NCBI GenBank assembly: GCA_002839825.1
Contig: PGYU01000005.1
Span: 62,001-126,000, forward strand
Direction: 5' to 3'
DNA: 64,000 nt
Source of the DNA: Ignavibacteriae bacterium HGW-Ignavibacteriae-1
GTDB taxonomy: Bacteria > Bacteroidota > Ignavibacteria > Kapaibacteriales > UBA2268
Part shown: piece after piece, positions 31,107 to 37,180 of the stretch
Position numbering within the stretch: the first letter of the stretch is position 1
Layout: each line of letters starts with the position of its first letter
Made by a program: the position numbers and the translations under genes
Notes under the pieces: generated by a model
The model's database searches: none
What the model saw: the letters and a program-made list of their open reading frames with translations, nothing else
Told to the model about the DNA's origin: nothing

Positions 31107-32423
31107 ATGATGTCAAAAACTAAAGTAATAATTATAGGAGCCGCCGGACGCGATTTCCATAATTTTAATACCGTTTACAGAGATAATGATGCAGTCGAAG
31201 TGATTGCATTTACAGCAGCTCAAATTCCCGATATTGACGGCAGAAAATACCCTGCTTCATTAGCAGGTAAATTATATCCGGAAGGAATCCCCATTTATGC
31301 TGAAGAAGAATTGGTTGGATTAATCCAAAAACACGAAGCAGACGAATGTGTACTTTCATATAGCGATTTGCCTTACGACAAAGTAATGCATCTCGGTTCG
31401 GTAGTTATGGCTGCCGGCGCAAAATTTTCTATGATGGGTTCATACCCCACAATGATTAAATCAACTAAACCGATTATCGCTGTTGGTGCAGTCAGAACCG
31501 GTTGCGGCAAATCACAAACTACTCGCGCTATCGTTCGCGTGTTGATGGAAGCCGGCAAAAAAGTCGTTTCAGTACGTCATCCAATGCCATACGGCGATTT
31601 GGAAAAACAAAAAGTTCAACGTTTTGCTACTATCGAAGACCTCAAACTTCACAAATGTACAATCGAAGAAATGGAAGAATACGAACCACATATTGCAATG
31701 GGAAGTATCATTTATTCGGGTGTGGATTATGAAGCAATTTTACGCGAAGCTGAAAAAGAAGCTGACGTGATCATTTGGGACGGTGGCAACAACGACATGC
31801 CTTTCTACAAACCTGATTTGAACGTGGTTGTGGTTGACCCATTACGCCCCGGACATGAAATCGGTTACTATCCCGGCGAAGTTAACTTGAGAATGGCTGA
31901 CGTAATCGTTATGAACAAGATTGATTCAGCTTATCCCGATGATGTTGATTTTGTATTGGAAAATATTCGCGAATATAATCCCGATGCTCAAATTATCATG
32001 GCTGCGTCTGCAATTATGGTGGACAATCCTGAAATCATCAAAGGTAAAAACGTTTTGGCAATCGAAGATGGTCCTACTTTGACTCACGGCGAAATGCACA
32101 TCGGTGCAGCTATCGTCGCAGCTCGCAGATTTGGTGCCGCTTCACTCGTTGACCCAAGACCTTACACAGTTGGCAAATTGACTGAAACATTCGAAAAATA
32201 CCCTGAAATCGGCACATTACTTCCTGCAATGGGATATGGCGACCAACAAATGAAAGATTTGGAAACAACGATTAAGAACACAGTTTGCGATTCCGTTGTG
32301 ATTGGTACTCCGATTGATTTGACAAGATTTATCAAAATTGACCAACCTCACACCAGAGTTTATTACGAATTATCAGAAATTGGCAAACCTGACATCAAAT
32401 CAGTTTTAGAAAAATTCTTATAA
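31107..32423 (+). CDS. P-loop GTPase/ATPase of the cyclic 2,3-diphosphoglycerate synthetase family
   Basis: 438 residues. An N-terminal Rossmann-like part (MSKTKVIIIGAAGRDFHNF) precedes a P-loop domain with GAVRTGCGKS (127-136), IIWDGGNND, and MNKIDSAY near position 270. The family is named after the archaeal enzyme that makes the thermolyte cDPG, but many mesophilic bacteria carry it and its role there is unproven. Start ATG at 31107 or 31110, preceded by AGGTG. Single-gene unit closed by the terminator at 32446. The family call is good; the reaction is doubtful. Confidence 0.8.
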   Translation: MMSKTKVIIIGAAGRDFHNFNTVYRDNDAVEVIAFTAAQIPDIDGRKYPASLAGKLYPEGIPIYAEEELVGLIQKHEADECVLSYSDLPYDKVMHLGSVVMAAGAKFSMMGSYPTMIKSTKPIIAVGAVRTGCGKSQTTRAIVRVLMEAGKKVVSVRHPMPYGDLEKQKVQRFATIEDLKLHKCTIEEMEEYEPHIAMGSIIYSGVDYEAILREAEKEADVIIWDGGNNDMPFYKPDLNVVVVDPLRPGHEIGYYPGEVNLRMADVIVMNKIDSAYPDDVDFVLENIREYNPDAQIIMAASAIMVDNPEIIKGKNVLAIEDGPTLTHGEMHIGAAIVAARRFGAASLVDPRPYTVGKLTETFEKYPEIGTLLPAMGYGDQQMKDLETTIKNTVCDSVVIGTPIDLTRFIKIDQPHTRVYYELSEIGKPDIKSVLEKFL

Positions 32424-32480: not shown

Positions 32481-32497
32481 GTAGAGCGTGTCTCGTC

Positions 32498-32518
32498 CCG
32501 TCTTTGTTACAAAGACGG
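32498..32518. repeat. perfect palindrome related to the repeats flanking hicBA
   Basis: CCGTCTTTGT, one central T, then ACAAAGACGG: two 10-bp arms with no loop. The arm equals the terminal inverted repeat of the ~103-bp elements at 35982 and 36625, as if the interior had been lost. It lies between the terminator at 32446 and the convergent lipoprotein gene. Confidence 0.7.
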
Positions 32519-32560: not shown

Positions 32561-33052
32561 CTACTTTATTGTCCTACAGGTCAGTCGTAATTTTTCATTG
32601 TCAATTAAATCGTTCAATTGTTTCTCAATGTCCGTAAAAGCTGATTTGTTGCCACAGTTGCAAAGTTCTGTAAGTGGGTCTTTGTCAATAATATAATTGT
32701 AAAGCTCTGTTAGAGTAGGTGGATTTGGAAGTTCGGAATATTCCTTATATGTAAGCTTAAGAAAAGCTACATTCTTTCCAATACCCCTGTTGTCTAATAA
32801 ATACCCATTATTTAAGATAGTTGGATTAGGGAATCCGTCATCTAACTTTAAATCATTTGGATGTGGATACGATACAATTTCAGTTTTGTCATCATTTAAG
32901 ATTACAGGTACAAGATTGTTATAATCATTCTTGGTTTTATACACTAAGGTCGGAGGTCCCGGAGTGTATAGCGGAACAAATTCTTGTTTCATGTTTTTAC
33001 ATGAATTACATCCTGCAATAGCAACAAGTATAATTAATATAACTATTCTCAT
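32561..33052 (-). CDS. small lipoprotein coupled to the C10 protease
   Basis: 163 residues. A lipoprotein signal peptide with lipobox VAIAGC puts the lipidated Cys near position 15. The mature part is rich in polar residues (LYTPGPPTLVYKTKNDYNN, YLLDNRGIGKNVAFLKLTY) and has paired cysteines near the C-terminus (CNCG, LTC). No known catalytic motif is seen. Its ATG overlaps the C10 protease stop by 4 nt (ATGA), so the two are translationally coupled. Adjacent genes of C10 proteases in other bacteria can encode proteinaceous inhibitors; that role here is only a hypothesis. Confidence 0.75.
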   Translation of the reverse strand: MRIVILIILVAIAGCNSCKNMKQEFVPLYTPGPPTLVYKTKNDYNNLVPVILNDDKTEIVSYPHPNDLKLDDGFPNPTILNNGYLLDNRGIGKNVAFLKLTYKEYSELPNPPTLTELYNYIIDKDPLTELCNCGNKSAFTDIEKQLNDLIDNEKLRLTCRTIK

Positions 33053-35661
33053 TTTTTAACAATAATTTTTTTGCTAATAATGCCTTCAGAAGTATGTATT
33101 TCAATAAAATATACTGCATCAGCAAGCCCTTGTAATGGCAATTTTATGCTCTTTCCAGTATTTGCTACATTTTCAGAGCTAATTATTTGACCTGTCACAT
33201 TAAGTAGGTTAATTTGCAATACTTGGTCTGCAAATTGATTCAAATCAATCGTTACAAAATCCTTTGCCGGATTGGGGTAAATTTTAATTAGGTCAGCGAC
33301 TTCAATATCTTCAATACTTGTTGTTGGTGTCCTGTTTATTGATAAGTCCAGCAGATAAGATCCTGTTTCACCTGCAAAGTAAGGTGCTACATGAAAATAA
33401 ACTATGCCGCCATTATTAATTTTGATATCTCCTGTCATATAATCATCATATGCGTCTGACCAAGTAGAGCCATCTGTTGAATAAGAAAACAAAGCATCTA
33501 CGGTATAGATGTCTTCATCTTCACTACTAAATGAATCAAAAAGTATCGCGGAAATAGTATAGTCATAACCGGAAGCTAAGTTGATGCTATAATAATCATT
33601 GTCAGCTCCGTTGTGAAGATTCGAGCCTTGTGTGTTTTTGGTAGCTGTATTGTTAGAAATATTAATTGGTAACGAATGAGACTGCACGAATGTGTCATTA
33701 TTCTCGTATTGGTCAGGCGTTAAAGAAGGAGCTTGTACAGTTACTCTTATCGGATTTTGAAAATAGCTTGAACCTGTGAGTTGCCAATCTGAATTGGGGT
33801 TATGCTGAGCCGCCAAAAGGTAAGTACCCGGACTTACACTTACTGAAGCGTTATCAAAAGTCAGGTAAGGTGATTGGTAAGTATATCCGGGTGGCAAACC
33901 ATTGCTTTCTTCAATTATGCCAATATCTTGAGCTAAAGTACCATCCAAGTTATATAAGCCAACACCGTAATAACCGGAAAAAGTATTTGTTCCGTCATTG
34001 ATAATATTATAGTTGACTGAAATTGATTGCCCTTGAGTTAAAGTAGTACTCGGAGTTACATTCATCGAAGAATTCAATTCAATATCATTAGGGTAGATTA
34101 CATTCATTTGTGCAAAGTTGGTATAACTTTCATTATTTGAAACCTGAATCCAATTACCATCTGCCGGTTTGTAATATATACCCACATAATATGTGCCTGG
34201 CAACATGCTTAATAAACTACTATTGCTAAAAACCAAATCGTTTTGGTAAGCATAACCTCCCTGCAAAGAGTAGCCTGTTAGGACTTCTACAAAGTCAATG
34301 AAATTATATTGGTCATCGAAAATAGCGGCACACAAATCACCATTAAAAGTAATTGTTCCACTGTTAACAATATTGGTCGTAATATCGAATGATTGCCCAT
34401 AATAGATAGTATTAGAAGAAGGATTGACATAATTATAAAGTCCAATATTCAATGTTTGTTCTACTTGAGGTGGCTCAATGCCTATTACCGCTTGTTGTCC
34501 GCTATTATAACCTCCGGTTCCACCACCGGTTCCTAATCCGCTTGGGTTAAGGGAATTAATTAGAAAATAGCCATCATAAGCACCACCCCAACCCCAATTA
34601 AAATGGAAAAAGTTACTATTATCGTAGCCATCACAAACGAAAGCGTGACCGCCTCCTGAACCAAAGCCTGCATATAAAATAGGGCGGCTCGCATCAAGTT
34701 CGCCTTTTAATAAATTAATCCATTGCGTATCGTTGTAGTATTCTCTTTCAACCCCCTGTAAAGTGTTTTTATAACCAAAATAGGTTTTAAGAGCATATTC
34801 GGAACAATGTTCAACAGCACTTTTGGCAGAAATAACAAAAGCCGCGCTTCCACCATTGTCAGCGATACCATAATCCATATCAACACTAACGCCAACATGA
34901 TACATCAAAGTTGCTACTTCATTATTTGAACTATTAACGTAGTTCGGCATTGCACTCCATTGAAAAGTCGTGCTCCCGATATTAGCGGCAAGAGTGCCAT
35001 AGGTATGATGGTCATAAGAGTGAAATCCCGAACCGGTCGCCGGATAATTCCAGAATTTCATGATTTGAGCCATAGCAGTTGCAACACAACCCGAAACAGT
35101 TCTTTCATTTGCTGTATAATCAAATGGGCATAAGTCATTATAATAAGGCGATTGATCCCACTTTGTTTGTACTAATGGATTTACGCTTGCAGCGACTTTG
35201 AGTAAATTATGGTTTGAACTCAAATAATTATTCCATTCCTCTTGTATTTCCTGTGTGGCAGCAATATTATTATCAATTACATAGCGAATTTGGCTTTTGT
35301 ATTCTTCAAACCATTTTTGGGCATTTTGTGGAATATTGCTAGGGTCAAAAGCCCCTTCGTCAGAATATCCCAAAATAGGAAATACTTGGTCGTCTGCGGC
35401 TACAATGACAAAACCATTTGTCCCTGCATTAAAAACATAAAAAAATGTAGTCTTCAGAACTTTTGCAGTAGTGCTTCTATTGCTCGAACTTGATTTATAA
35501 ATCAAGTCAAGATTAACAGAATTTTTGAAGGCAAGTGAATTTGTGGCACCGGTTAAGAAAGTCTGCCCAACCTGTTTGGCAGTAAATTCATCAATGGGTT
35601 TTGCAAATGTTGCGATGCTGAATGCAGTCAGCAGTACAGTGAGTAAGAGTATTTTATTCAT
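33049..35661 (-). CDS. secreted C10 (streptopain/SpeB-type) cysteine protease with T9SS sorting domain
   Basis: 870 residues. After the signal peptide (to about 20) comes an inhibitory propeptide (about 21-160), as in streptopain. The C10 catalytic domain (about 161-375) has Cys192 in SGCVATAMAQIMKFWNYP, His339 in GGGHAFVCDGYD and the NWGWGG loop. Two or more CARDB-like Ig domains follow (about 395-640), then a pre-peptidase C-terminal-like domain (about 655-775) and a T9SS type A sorting domain (about 795-870, IYPNPAKDFVTIDL ... KKIIVKK). Predicted extracellular protease. Downstream lipoprotein gene overlaps by 4 nt. Confidence 0.93.
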   Translation of the reverse strand: MNKILLLTVLLTAFSIATFAKPIDEFTAKQVGQTFLTGATNSLAFKNSVNLDLIYKSSSSNRSTTAKVLKTTFFYVFNAGTNGFVIVAADDQVFPILGYSDEGAFDPSNIPQNAQKWFEEYKSQIRYVIDNNIAATQEIQEEWNNYLSSNHNLLKVAASVNPLVQTKWDQSPYYNDLCPFDYTANERTVSGCVATAMAQIMKFWNYPATGSGFHSYDHHTYGTLAANIGSTTFQWSAMPNYVNSSNNEVATLMYHVGVSVDMDYGIADNGGSAAFVISAKSAVEHCSEYALKTYFGYKNTLQGVEREYYNDTQWINLLKGELDASRPILYAGFGSGGGHAFVCDGYDNSNFFHFNWGWGGAYDGYFLINSLNPSGLGTGGGTGGYNSGQQAVIGIEPPQVEQTLNIGLYNYVNPSSNTIYYGQSFDITTNIVNSGTITFNGDLCAAIFDDQYNFIDFVEVLTGYSLQGGYAYQNDLVFSNSSLLSMLPGTYYVGIYYKPADGNWIQVSNNESYTNFAQMNVIYPNDIELNSSMNVTPSTTLTQGQSISVNYNIINDGTNTFSGYYGVGLYNLDGTLAQDIGIIEESNGLPPGYTYQSPYLTFDNASVSVSPGTYLLAAQHNPNSDWQLTGSSYFQNPIRVTVQAPSLTPDQYENNDTFVQSHSLPINISNNTATKNTQGSNLHNGADNDYYSINLASGYDYTISAILFDSFSSEDEDIYTVDALFSYSTDGSTWSDAYDDYMTGDIKINNGGIVYFHVAPYFAGETGSYLLDLSINRTPTTSIEDIEVADLIKIYPNPAKDFVTIDLNQFADQVLQINLLNVTGQIISSENVANTGKSIKLPLQGLADAVYFIEIHTSEGIISKKIIVKK

Positions 35662-35845: not shown

Positions 35846-35963
35846 CCCACGAATTCATTCGTGGGGAAGGGAAAATGTTAATTCATCCGATGACTTGGAT
35901 TCAACAGATGAATTATCTCTAACAAATGTGCCATACTTAGGAGCTTGGAGTCATCGGATGAAT
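35846..35963. repeat. palindrome cluster in a 441-bp non-coding stretch
   Basis: The stretch from 35662 to 36102 has no credible gene. It holds a perfect hairpin CCCACGAAT / ATTCGTGGG (35846-35865, 2-nt loop), then a 15-bp perfect inverted repeat ATTCATCCGATGACT (35881-35895) and AGTCATCGGATGAAT (35949-35963) separated by 53 bp. The ~103-bp repeat at 35982 follows directly. It looks like nested remains of small palindromic elements. Confidence 0.7.
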
Positions 35964-35981: not shown

Positions 35982-36084
35982 TGTCCCGTCTTTGTTATAA
36001 TTGACGGATAGGGATGAATCTGACCTATAGTCGTCTTTGTAATAATTGACGATACACTAAATTTGAACAAAGACAGGACGGGGA
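35982..36084. repeat. ~103-bp palindromic repeat element, copy 1 (left of hicBA)
   Basis: Starts TGTCCCGTCTTTGTT and ends AACAAAGACAGGACGGGGA, so the ends are imperfect inverted repeats. Its first 42 bases are identical to copy 2 at 36625, and the last ~30 differ by only a few bases. The interior holds a second, degenerate half-unit (CGTCTTTGTAATAATTGACG). It ends 18 bp from the hicA stop. No coding capacity: MITE-like or REP-like. Confidence 0.8.
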
Positions 36085-36102
36085 GTTTTCAAACCACTTA
36101 GC

Positions 36103-36327
36103 TTACTCTAATAGCTCATTAAACTCATCTAATGATAATCCGCTTTGTCTTATGATAGCTCTCAAAGTACCTCTATCTAAAGTTTTATGTTCCGGAACTG
36201 TAATTTGGCTAAAAGGTTCATCGCGGCGAATAATAATATGGCTTCCTTTCTGTCTGACGAACTTATATCCTGCTCTATTCAATGCATCTACACATTCAAG
36301 CCCCGAAATGGACGGTAAGCCTTTCAT
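36103..36327 (-). CDS. hicA: HicA family toxin (mRNA interferase)
   Basis: 74 residues with the double-stranded-RNA-binding-like HicA fold. GYKFVRQKGSHIIIRR contains the catalytic His, followed by ITVPEHKTLDRGTLRAIIRQ. It cleaves mRNA when free of HicB. It overlaps the antitoxin gene by 4 nt. The antitoxin comes first, the order reversed from many hicAB loci. The pair is bracketed by two ~103-bp direct repeats. Confidence 0.92.
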   Translation of the reverse strand: MKGLPSISGLECVDALNRAGYKFVRQKGSHIIIRRDEPFSQITVPEHKTLDRGTLRAIIRQSGLSLDEFNELLE

Positions 36328-36530
36328 ACTACTGCTAATATTGATTCAAAGTGCTCTTCAGGAACGGGCAAATTGTCATCAACAAGAGTTTCGATATAAA
36401 GTTCAATCGCTTCTTTGATGTTTTGCAATGCCAATTCTTTAGTTTCGCCTTGGCTGATACAGCCTGGTAATGAAGGACATTCGGCAACCCAAAATCCATC
36501 CAAACCCTTATTTAAGAATACTTGTCTCAT
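36324..36530 (-). CDS. hicB: HicB family antitoxin (short form)
   Basis: 68 residues with the partial RNase H-like HicB fold (GFWVAECPSLPGCISQGETKELALQNIKEAIELYIE). It ends soon after the fold, without the C-terminal helix-turn-helix or ribbon-helix-helix DNA-binding domain found in longer HicB proteins, so autoregulation may need another factor. First gene of the pair; its stop overlaps the hicA start by 4 nt. Confidence 0.92.
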   Translation of the reverse strand: MRQVFLNKGLDGFWVAECPSLPGCISQGETKELALQNIKEAIELYIETLVDDNLPVPEEHFESILAVV

Positions 36531-36624
36531 ATTATCTCCTCTTTTACATTTATCATAAGTATAAATGTATAATCATTCAAATTATTTTAGAATGTCTTGC
36601 TCATCCTCTAACAAGCGCAGTTCC

Positions 36625-36727
36625 TGTCCCGTCTTTGTTATAATTGACGGATAGGGATGAATCTGAATTATAGCCGTCAGTTGTAACAATTGACGATACA
36701 CTAAATTAGAACAAAGACGGTACGGGA
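36625..36727. repeat. ~103-bp palindromic repeat element, copy 2 (right of hicBA)
   Basis: Same orientation as copy 1 at 35982, giving direct repeats on either side of hicBA about 640 bp apart. The ends contain the inverted pair CCGTCTTTGTT and AACAAAGACGG (11 bp, perfect). One internal base is inserted relative to copy 1 and there are several substitutions in the middle. It lies 94 bp upstream of the hicB start. Confidence 0.8.
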
Positions 36728-36827: not shown

Positions 36828-36901
36828 TACGCCCTAGAGGAGTCGAACCTCTAACCTTCTGATCCGTAGTCAGATACTCTATCCAATTGAGCTAAGGGCG
36901 C
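36828..36901 (-). tRNA. tRNA-Arg (anticodon ACG)
   Basis: 74 nt on the minus strand, from GCGCCCT at 36901 to the discriminator A at 36828. The anticodon stem is TCTGA / TCAGA with loop CTACGGA, so the anticodon is ACG, expected to be edited to ICG for CGN codons. The T arm AGAGG-TTCGACT-CCTCT is intact. The 3' CCA is not encoded. The first acceptor pair is G1-U72 instead of the usual G-C, a minor oddity. It begins 12 bp after the rpsT stop and probably shares its transcript. Confidence 0.95.
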
Positions 36902-36913
36902 TTGTATGTCTGT

Positions 36914-37180
36914 TTATTCAGCAGCTGGCTTGAGCTTGCTGACAAATTTCGCCAATTTCGATTTCTTGTTCGCAGCGTTATTTTTGTGCAATATGCCCTT
37001 TGCTGCTACTCTATCCAAAATTTTGGTAGCTTCGCTCAATTTTACTACTGCTACGTCAAAATCCGTAGCTTCGCGTACTGCTCTAATAGCTAATCTAGTA
37101 GCTTTCTTGAACTGTCTGTTGTACAATCTCAATTTGCGAGATTGTCTCATTCTCTTTAATGCCGATTTATGGTGCGCCAT
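36914..37180 (-). CDS. rpsT: 30S ribosomal protein S20
   Basis: 88 residues, highly basic and helical, starting MAHHKSALKRMRQSRKLRLYN, with ATKILDRVAAKGILHKNNAANKKSKLAK near the C-terminus, as in all S20 proteins. It binds the 16S rRNA 5' domain in the small subunit. The tRNA-Arg gene follows 12 bp downstream. Confidence 0.97.
   Translation of the reverse strand: MAHHKSALKRMRQSRKLRLYNRQFKKATRLAIRAVREATDFDVAVVKLSEATKILDRVAAKGILHKNNAANKKSKLAKFVSKLKPAAE

Follow-up and report, generated by a model that had tools for sequence, protein, structure and literature searches.

The window, the whole 64,000-nucleotide stretch of DNA analysed here, contains a hicBA toxin-antitoxin pair on the minus strand between two plus-strand copies of a palindromic repeat of ~103 bp, which we call E. 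The hicA toxin gene (36103..36327, 74 aa) has a product matching PF07927 (HicA_toxin; E 7e-17, 61.7 bits against a Pfam cut-off of 27) and overlaps by 4 bp the hicB antitoxin gene (36324..36530, 68 aa), which encodes a short form of the antitoxin aligned to 46 of the 123 profile positions of PF15919 (HicB_lk_antitox; E 8.3e-10, 39.3 bits against a cut-off of 27). As predicted from these domains, hicBA is an intact, ordinary chromosomal toxin-antitoxin pair. A repeat search found a 12-nt inverted repeat (36542..36572, 92%) just upstream of hicB that may be its operator/promoter site, and the position of this repeat between hicB and the upstream E suggests that hicBA may own its operator.

The first copy of E (E1, 35982..36084) lies ~18 bp after hicA and the second (36625..36727) 94 bp before hicB. 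BLAST aligned the two in equal orientation with 91% identity over 102 bp (94% in the left part of 54 nt, 91% in the right part of 46 nt), and a 39-nt piece occurs twice in the window against an expected 0.00 from 100 shuffles, so the repeat is not a product of chance. The arms of the inverted ends are 20 nt long and 85% complementary in copy 1 and 25 nt and 88% in copy 2, and in DNA folding all four strands of the two copies beat 200 of 200 shuffles (z -3.6 to -5.0). These results agree with a sequence-only reading of this DNA, which had described two direct ~103-bp palindromic repeats with inverted ends bracketing hicBA at these spacings.

We compared the window's own source genome (G000) with two other species of the same genus (G001 and G002), all three being draft assemblies. 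Around the locus G000 and G002 are 93-94% identical, and G001, the more distant relative of the three, is 87% identical to either. From left to right the window carries a 'GTPase' gene (31107..32423, plus strand, 438 aa, labelled by inspection) that is the left anchor common to G001 and G002, a mini-palindrome that has the ends of E but lacks an interior (32494..32518, perfect core 32500-32516), a 163-aa gene, a C10 peptidase gene (33049..35661, minus strand), further repeats, E1 (ortholog G002:C8:1045-1150), hicBA, the second E, a tRNA gene (36828..36901, minus strand, Arg by orthologs) that begins a block common to G001 and G002, and rpsT, encoding ribosomal protein S20 (36914..37180, minus strand, PF01649). 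The peptidase also carries a Spi inhibitor domain and, by domain search, a Por_Secre_tail sorting domain of the kind typical of Bacteroidota; its gene has no DNA match in G001 or G002, and the mini-palindrome forms the other border of its region. A second dispersed element of 83 bp (35881..35963), unrelated to E and with 15-nt perfect inverted ends (ATTCATCCGATGACT), sits 18 bp from E1; it has more than 10 matches in G002, one of which stands right of the E copy beside hicB there.

A dispersed palindromic element and its sibling

BLAST of G000 with E gave 17 matches, of which 14 covered at least 90 query bases and so were nearly full-length, one was half length and two were short. Near-full copies made up 12 of 14 matches in G001 and 15 of 20 in G002, and one further copy each was later found at G000:C40:208252 and G002:C10:45490 (G002 total 16). 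This whole-genome count, a check that the sequence-only reading had suggested, shows that the repeats are not confined to the locus, and together with the inverted ends it bears out the MITE- or REP-type layout proposed there. Of 40 genomes (own included), five matched E: the three species of the genus and, among the 37 more distant ones, two from other genera that gave just 26-42-bp pieces. Blastn against phage and plasmid records and a degenerate exact pattern run on viral contigs found no E, and the same kind of pattern across genome contigs matched two contigs only, both equal in length to contigs of G001. Full-length E is, as far as searched, specific to the genus. A search of the open-licence literature by word rather than by sequence found no report of it, and E is a new family of a known kind of element.

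The core palindrome CGTCAGTTGTTACAACTGACG is commoner than E itself. With up to three mismatches it matched 31+34 times on the two strands of G000, 30+29 in G001 and at least 42+39 in G002, a single site being able to count on both strands because the core is palindromic, and its reversed control gave 0 matches. Mini-palindromes built of the ends of E alone also occur, including the one in the window. When 34 copies of E were aligned over 114 columns, the interior proved to be conserved, with a mean column identity of 81%. Copies occur on either strand, their surroundings vary, and some orthologous sites lack one. E has the terminal inverted repeats of a MITE and the many dispersed copies without a transposase gene, which 103 bp would be too short to encode. 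In G000, a plain count places four copies within ~300 bp of a tRNA gene (L003, L006, L014 and the window copy at 36625), these genes being Arg, Val and two recognised by eye in the flanks.

We also searched for the inner ends alone, letting the gap vary within a total of 76-106 bp. This recovered 8 sites in G000, 11 in G001 and 10 in G002, all 29 of which were 89-91 bp long; the control gave 0 sites. Four of the 29, together with a fifth copy in L172, are a sibling element, E', with the ends and length of E and an unrelated interior. E' lies, in a single orientation, around one gene, a type IIG-like restriction-modification gene of 942 aa on G000:C32 and 988 aa on G002:C15; the G000 protein has Eco57I, N6_Mtase and TaqI_C domains. 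The two genes (L172 1308-4136 and L173 3063-6029) match at 96% identity over an aligned 1847 bp of their first part and at 92% over their 3' end, and a mid-stretch of ~950 bp does not align, so the specificity region seems to have been exchanged. The G002 locus also holds a DUF5131 gene and a 300-aa gene. A 291-aa gene elsewhere in G000 (C12:39100-40392, L079) is likewise bracketed directly, here by a pair of long, nearly identical stretches that contain several CGTCAGTTGT palindromes and have a different interior again.

Gene order in three species and the right-hand repeat

The three species differ in what lies between the GTPase gene and tRNA-Arg. In G001, the next gene after the GTPase gene is a WD40 gene cut off by the end of contig C63, with no hicBA, and contig C23 starts with the rest of WD40, followed by X2, tRNA-Arg and rpsT; the end of C63 and the start of C23 have 270 identical bases in common. 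Neither G001 junction (GTPase-WD40 or X2-tRNA-Arg) holds a full E, and a short E-like remnant beside X2 is possible. In G002, copies of E are named E1, E2 and E3 by their place around hicBA and tRNA-Arg: contig C8 reads GTPase, E1, hicBA, E2 and the start of WD40 at the contig end, and contig C5 reads WD40, X2, E3, tRNA-Arg and rpsT. Identity between the WD40 copies of contigs C8 and C5 reaches only 85%, indicating that these are different paralogs and that the order in G002 is itself rearranged; the order E2-WD40-X2-E3 is thus a reconstruction and does not stand on one contig. The window lacks the WD40-X2 block, and its right-hand E connects the hicB side directly with the tRNA-Arg side. The X2 open frame runs into E both in G002 (C5; X2 stop, L115 4693) and at a G000 paralog (C40; L117 7267), so that E supplies the last codons and the stop of X2 there.

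When the window was aligned to E2 and E3 of G002, 101 columns left of 36677 were of E2 type and 3 of E3 type, and right of 36677 the balance turned to 106 of E3 type and 10 of E2 type. These columns are mostly flank, and some are gaps. Nine discriminating columns lie within the element: 36633, 36634, 36650, 36671, 36674 and 36725 are of E2 type, and 36625, 36642 and 36719 of E3 type. The left part of the element is therefore E2-type in five of seven columns (two of them adjacent, perhaps one event) and E3-type in two, and the right part is split 1:1. Since the interior columns are few and mixed, the argument for a seam rests on the flanks, and with an E2 left flank and an E3 right flank the right-hand E can be read as an E2/E3 junction.

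What was observed is the pair of repeats, the scatter of E through the genomes, the gene order in each of the three species and the E2-left, E3-right flanks of the right-hand copy. To account for this we lean towards a joint reading in which E, ~103 bp long, is a palindromic, MITE- or REP-like element that is dispersed and non-autonomous, and two of its copies produced a deletion. Host recombination would use copies of E as short stretches of homology. In the lineage of the window, it would have acted on two direct copies, E2 on the right of hicBA and E3 on the left of tRNA-Arg/rpsT, with loss of WD40-X2, leaving a single E as the junction, the present right-hand copy. As G001 is the more distant of the relatives, we infer from it which way the change went; the mechanism would be of RecA type, and a transposase working in trans on the ends of E may have spread the element itself. 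Recombination between direct copies of E is the likeliest cause of the missing WD40-X2 block, and we hold it to be rather probable. The E repeats thus probably mediated gene loss, of neighbours and not of hicBA. The sequence-only reading had suggested that hicBA could be lost by recombination between the repeats: a deletion of that kind apparently did happen, but it hit the neighbouring WD40-X2, with copy 2 as its seam.

Adjacent pairs of E less than 4 kb apart are direct in nine of nine cases (three in G000, four in G001, two in G002), against random expectations of 0.30, 0.18 and 0.27 adjacent pairs. This count left out E' and the short sub-palindromes (two in G000, one in G001, five in G002), among the latter a minus-strand one at G002:C22:28910 that lies 43 bp from a plus-strand copy. 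The four G001 pairs form two tandem arrays, which are probably local duplications. Of 11 G000 sites traced in relatives, four (L004, L006, L011 and L013) have flanks that stay together in G002, two (L003 and L007) have their flanks on separate G002 contigs and the other five are undecided; with at least 4 of 11 kept together, most copies of E are no obvious breakpoints.

G000 was also searched for the missing block. The G002 stretch beside E2, WD40 start included, gave many partial matches in G000 and no full-length match at G002-like identity (best 87% over 239 bp and 92% over 166 bp), which fits a real loss of WD40-X2, short of proof. On G000:C40, a WD40-X2 block lies between two copies of E beside tRNA-Val. 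A recent excision of WD40-X2 at rpsT with re-insertion at tRNA-Val was rejected, as the C40 copy is 75-83% identical to the others, compared to 93-94% for the surroundings in G000 and G002.

Mobility, misassembly and function as alternative explanations

G000 and G002 share 96% identity over the 542 bp that separate the two repeats, and the only G001 match to this stretch, 92 bp at 72%, lies elsewhere. Identity close to that of the neighbours (93-94%) and an unchanged position with respect to the GTPase gene in both genomes fit shared descent, and on this comparison hicBA is about as old as the split of G000 and G002, or nearly so. The suggestion of the sequence-only reading that hicBA is a moving cassette is therefore not borne out: the pair sits at one place, is conserved about like its neighbours, and showed no excision or move of its own among the three genomes. 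An allele without hicBA, which that reading had proposed to look for in relatives, does exist in G001, but as this junction lacks both copies of E as well as hicBA, it is not the single-repeat product of an E1 x E2 excision.

The G001 junction would also be expected if E-hicBA-E were a composite unit of 745 bp, moved or inserted whole by an enzyme recognising the ends of E, like MITE pairs, since hicBA and both copies of E are present in G000 and G002 and all absent at the corresponding place. Two further cases of gene bracketing point the same way, namely WD40-X2 between copies of E on G000:C40 and the restriction-modification gene between copies of E' (two in G000, three in G002). On the other hand, the stretch that G002 has in excess of G001 (L119 255-1427) is longer than E-hicBA-E, with other repeats on both sides, and so is not an exact inserted unit; both carriers hold the unit at one place; and the bracketing could arise by chance and repeat insertion. 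Neither a target duplication nor an enzyme was found at the sites and genomes examined, and we regard a composite unit as unlikely. Target duplications were sought at the L010 site and at X2-tRNA-Arg, where the unoccupied alleles are too divergent for clean alignments. At the L013 site, the flanks in G001 are ~2.2 kb apart, with a 473-aa gene between them and no full E.

The search for an enzyme covered Y1 transposases in the genus and the ends of E in G000 and G002, and found, within that scope, no transposase recognising these ends of the kind that the sequence-only reading had proposed to look for. Y1 matches numbered one in G000, none in G001 and three in G002, and an E palindrome lies within ~1.5 kb of none of these four genes. 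The G000 gene (C31:26142-26480, L042) is flanked by six AGACTTCSGAAGTCT palindromes, two G002 genes (L143 and L159) stand beside repeated palindromes of their own (CCCACG..CGTGGG; CCATAGGTGAAACCTATGG), and the third G002 gene has no repeated palindrome alongside. These Y1 genes with their own palindromes are apparent REP-RAYT pairs, and as other palindromes adjoin them, the Y1 transposases seen in the genus were rejected as movers of E. In another genome (G008), one E-type palindrome occurs ~0.5 kb after a Y1 gene that is itself hugged by a different repeat. Searching G000 and G002 for single ends of E yielded only E, E' and lone ends. The two wider-spaced end pairs that were read, on G000:C32 and G002:C15, hold restriction-modification genes and not transposases, and a long-spaced pair at G000:C33:117596 was set aside as chance because it lies within coding sequence.

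The junction at 36625-36727 could instead be an assembly error joining two copies of E. A ~100-bp repeat at many loci is a typical break or misjoin point of short-read assemblies, and the tandem arrays of E in G001 do sit at contig starts. This explanation is quite unlikely, given that the join places the GTPase gene near tRNA-Arg/rpsT, as in G001, which a random misjoin would not do, and that the G002 stretch beside E2 has no full-length G002-like match elsewhere in G000.

E might also be a structured RNA, a terminator or a protein-binding site kept for its function, its bracketing of genes being incidental. The strong fold and the conserved interior would suit such a role, as would the pairing of arm spellings: CTTTGTT/AACAAAG and CAGTTGTT/AACAACTG co-occur above chance (22, 3, 3 and 6; Fisher P 0.004, counting every copy, kin included). 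Among the nine copies with a left T-type arm, six have the matching right arm, but three do not. Occurrence on both strands, in varied contexts and with absences at orthologous sites also argues against a conserved function, and no Rfam family overlaps either window copy at E up to 1, by which a known RNA family was rejected. We consider a functional site improbable.

Two unrelated interiors occur at a length fixed to 89-91 bp, and direct pairs bracket hicBA, WD40-X2 and, in the form of E', the restriction-modification gene. A speculative possibility, to which we give little weight, is that the shared ends GTYCCGTCAGTTGTT/AACAACTGACGGRAC serve as sites at which an enzyme cuts and joins palindromes of ~103 bp whose interiors are interchangeable, and that direct pairs carry addiction and defence genes as cassettes. 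If true, this would be integron-like gene shuffling without an integron, with hicBA and the type IIG restriction-modification gene as its cargo. That E copies are actual integron attC sites and hicBA a gene cassette is highly unlikely and was rejected: hicBA-type pairs are common as integron cassettes, and direct ~100-bp imperfect palindromes with variable interiors resemble the attC layout, but none of the three genomes exceeds the TIGR02249 cut-off for an integron integrase (sub-threshold matches also occur in 14 of 14 control genomes), the ends of E have GTT within the left arm and AAC within the right, the sense opposite to the attC consensus, and the copies are scattered and form no cassette array by an intI.

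Relation to known repeat systems

For a lineage that is uncultured and represented by draft genomes, the locus illustrates in detail how dispersed ~100-bp palindromes edit gene content, in that three related species show a gene block as present, absent and post-loss, and the seam is a repeat with the flanks of two parents. It also raises two questions: what brings elements of equal ends and length and unlike interiors to both sides of a toxin-antitoxin pair and of a restriction-modification gene, and by which enzyme E and E' are spread.

In its inverted ends, lack of a transposase gene and multiple copies, E is like the prokaryotic MITEs, such as the Correia elements of Neisseria and the MITE pairs around Acinetobacter integrons. 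In the cited parts of PMC3898611 and PMC10969869, prokaryotic MITEs are about 100-155 bp long, act as recombination sites and can bracket genes, and E likewise offers homology for rearrangement. It differs in that two interiors share one pair of ends, and in that neither target duplications nor a partner transposase was found for E at the sites and in the searches covered here. The idea of a miniature element building larger units is also found in TIMEs, Tn3-derived inverted-repeat miniature elements that, by the account in PMC4133298, can build larger non-autonomous gene-carrying transposons; E is likened to them by description, the Tn3-family ends and 5-6-bp target duplications being features of the TIMEs themselves.

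As short dispersed intergenic palindromes, copies of E also resemble REP sequences and REPINs. REPs with a RAYT carry a GTAG-type tag at the foot of the hairpin, as described in parts of PMC3733652 and PMC6006769, and this tag is absent by inspection from the 34-copy consensus of E on either strand, so E was rejected as a GTAG-type REP. CGTC-tagged REPs, which the relevant part of PMC3733652 reports without a dedicated transposase and also in Bacteroidetes, have an unpaired CGTC and a stem of 8-9 bp beginning with A-T pairs; E was rejected as one of these too, because the CGTC of E and of the mini-palindromes is paired with GACG and is followed by AG. The Y1 genes of the genus, moreover, lie near other palindromes.

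A further parallel is to the neisserial NIME/dRS3 arrays and minimal mobile elements, described in part of PMC3898611, in which exchangeable gene blocks are changed by homologous recombination. Here too, repeats and conserved genes surround exchangeable blocks, although the sequence and the phylum are different and the genomes compared here showed no strain-to-strain exchange.
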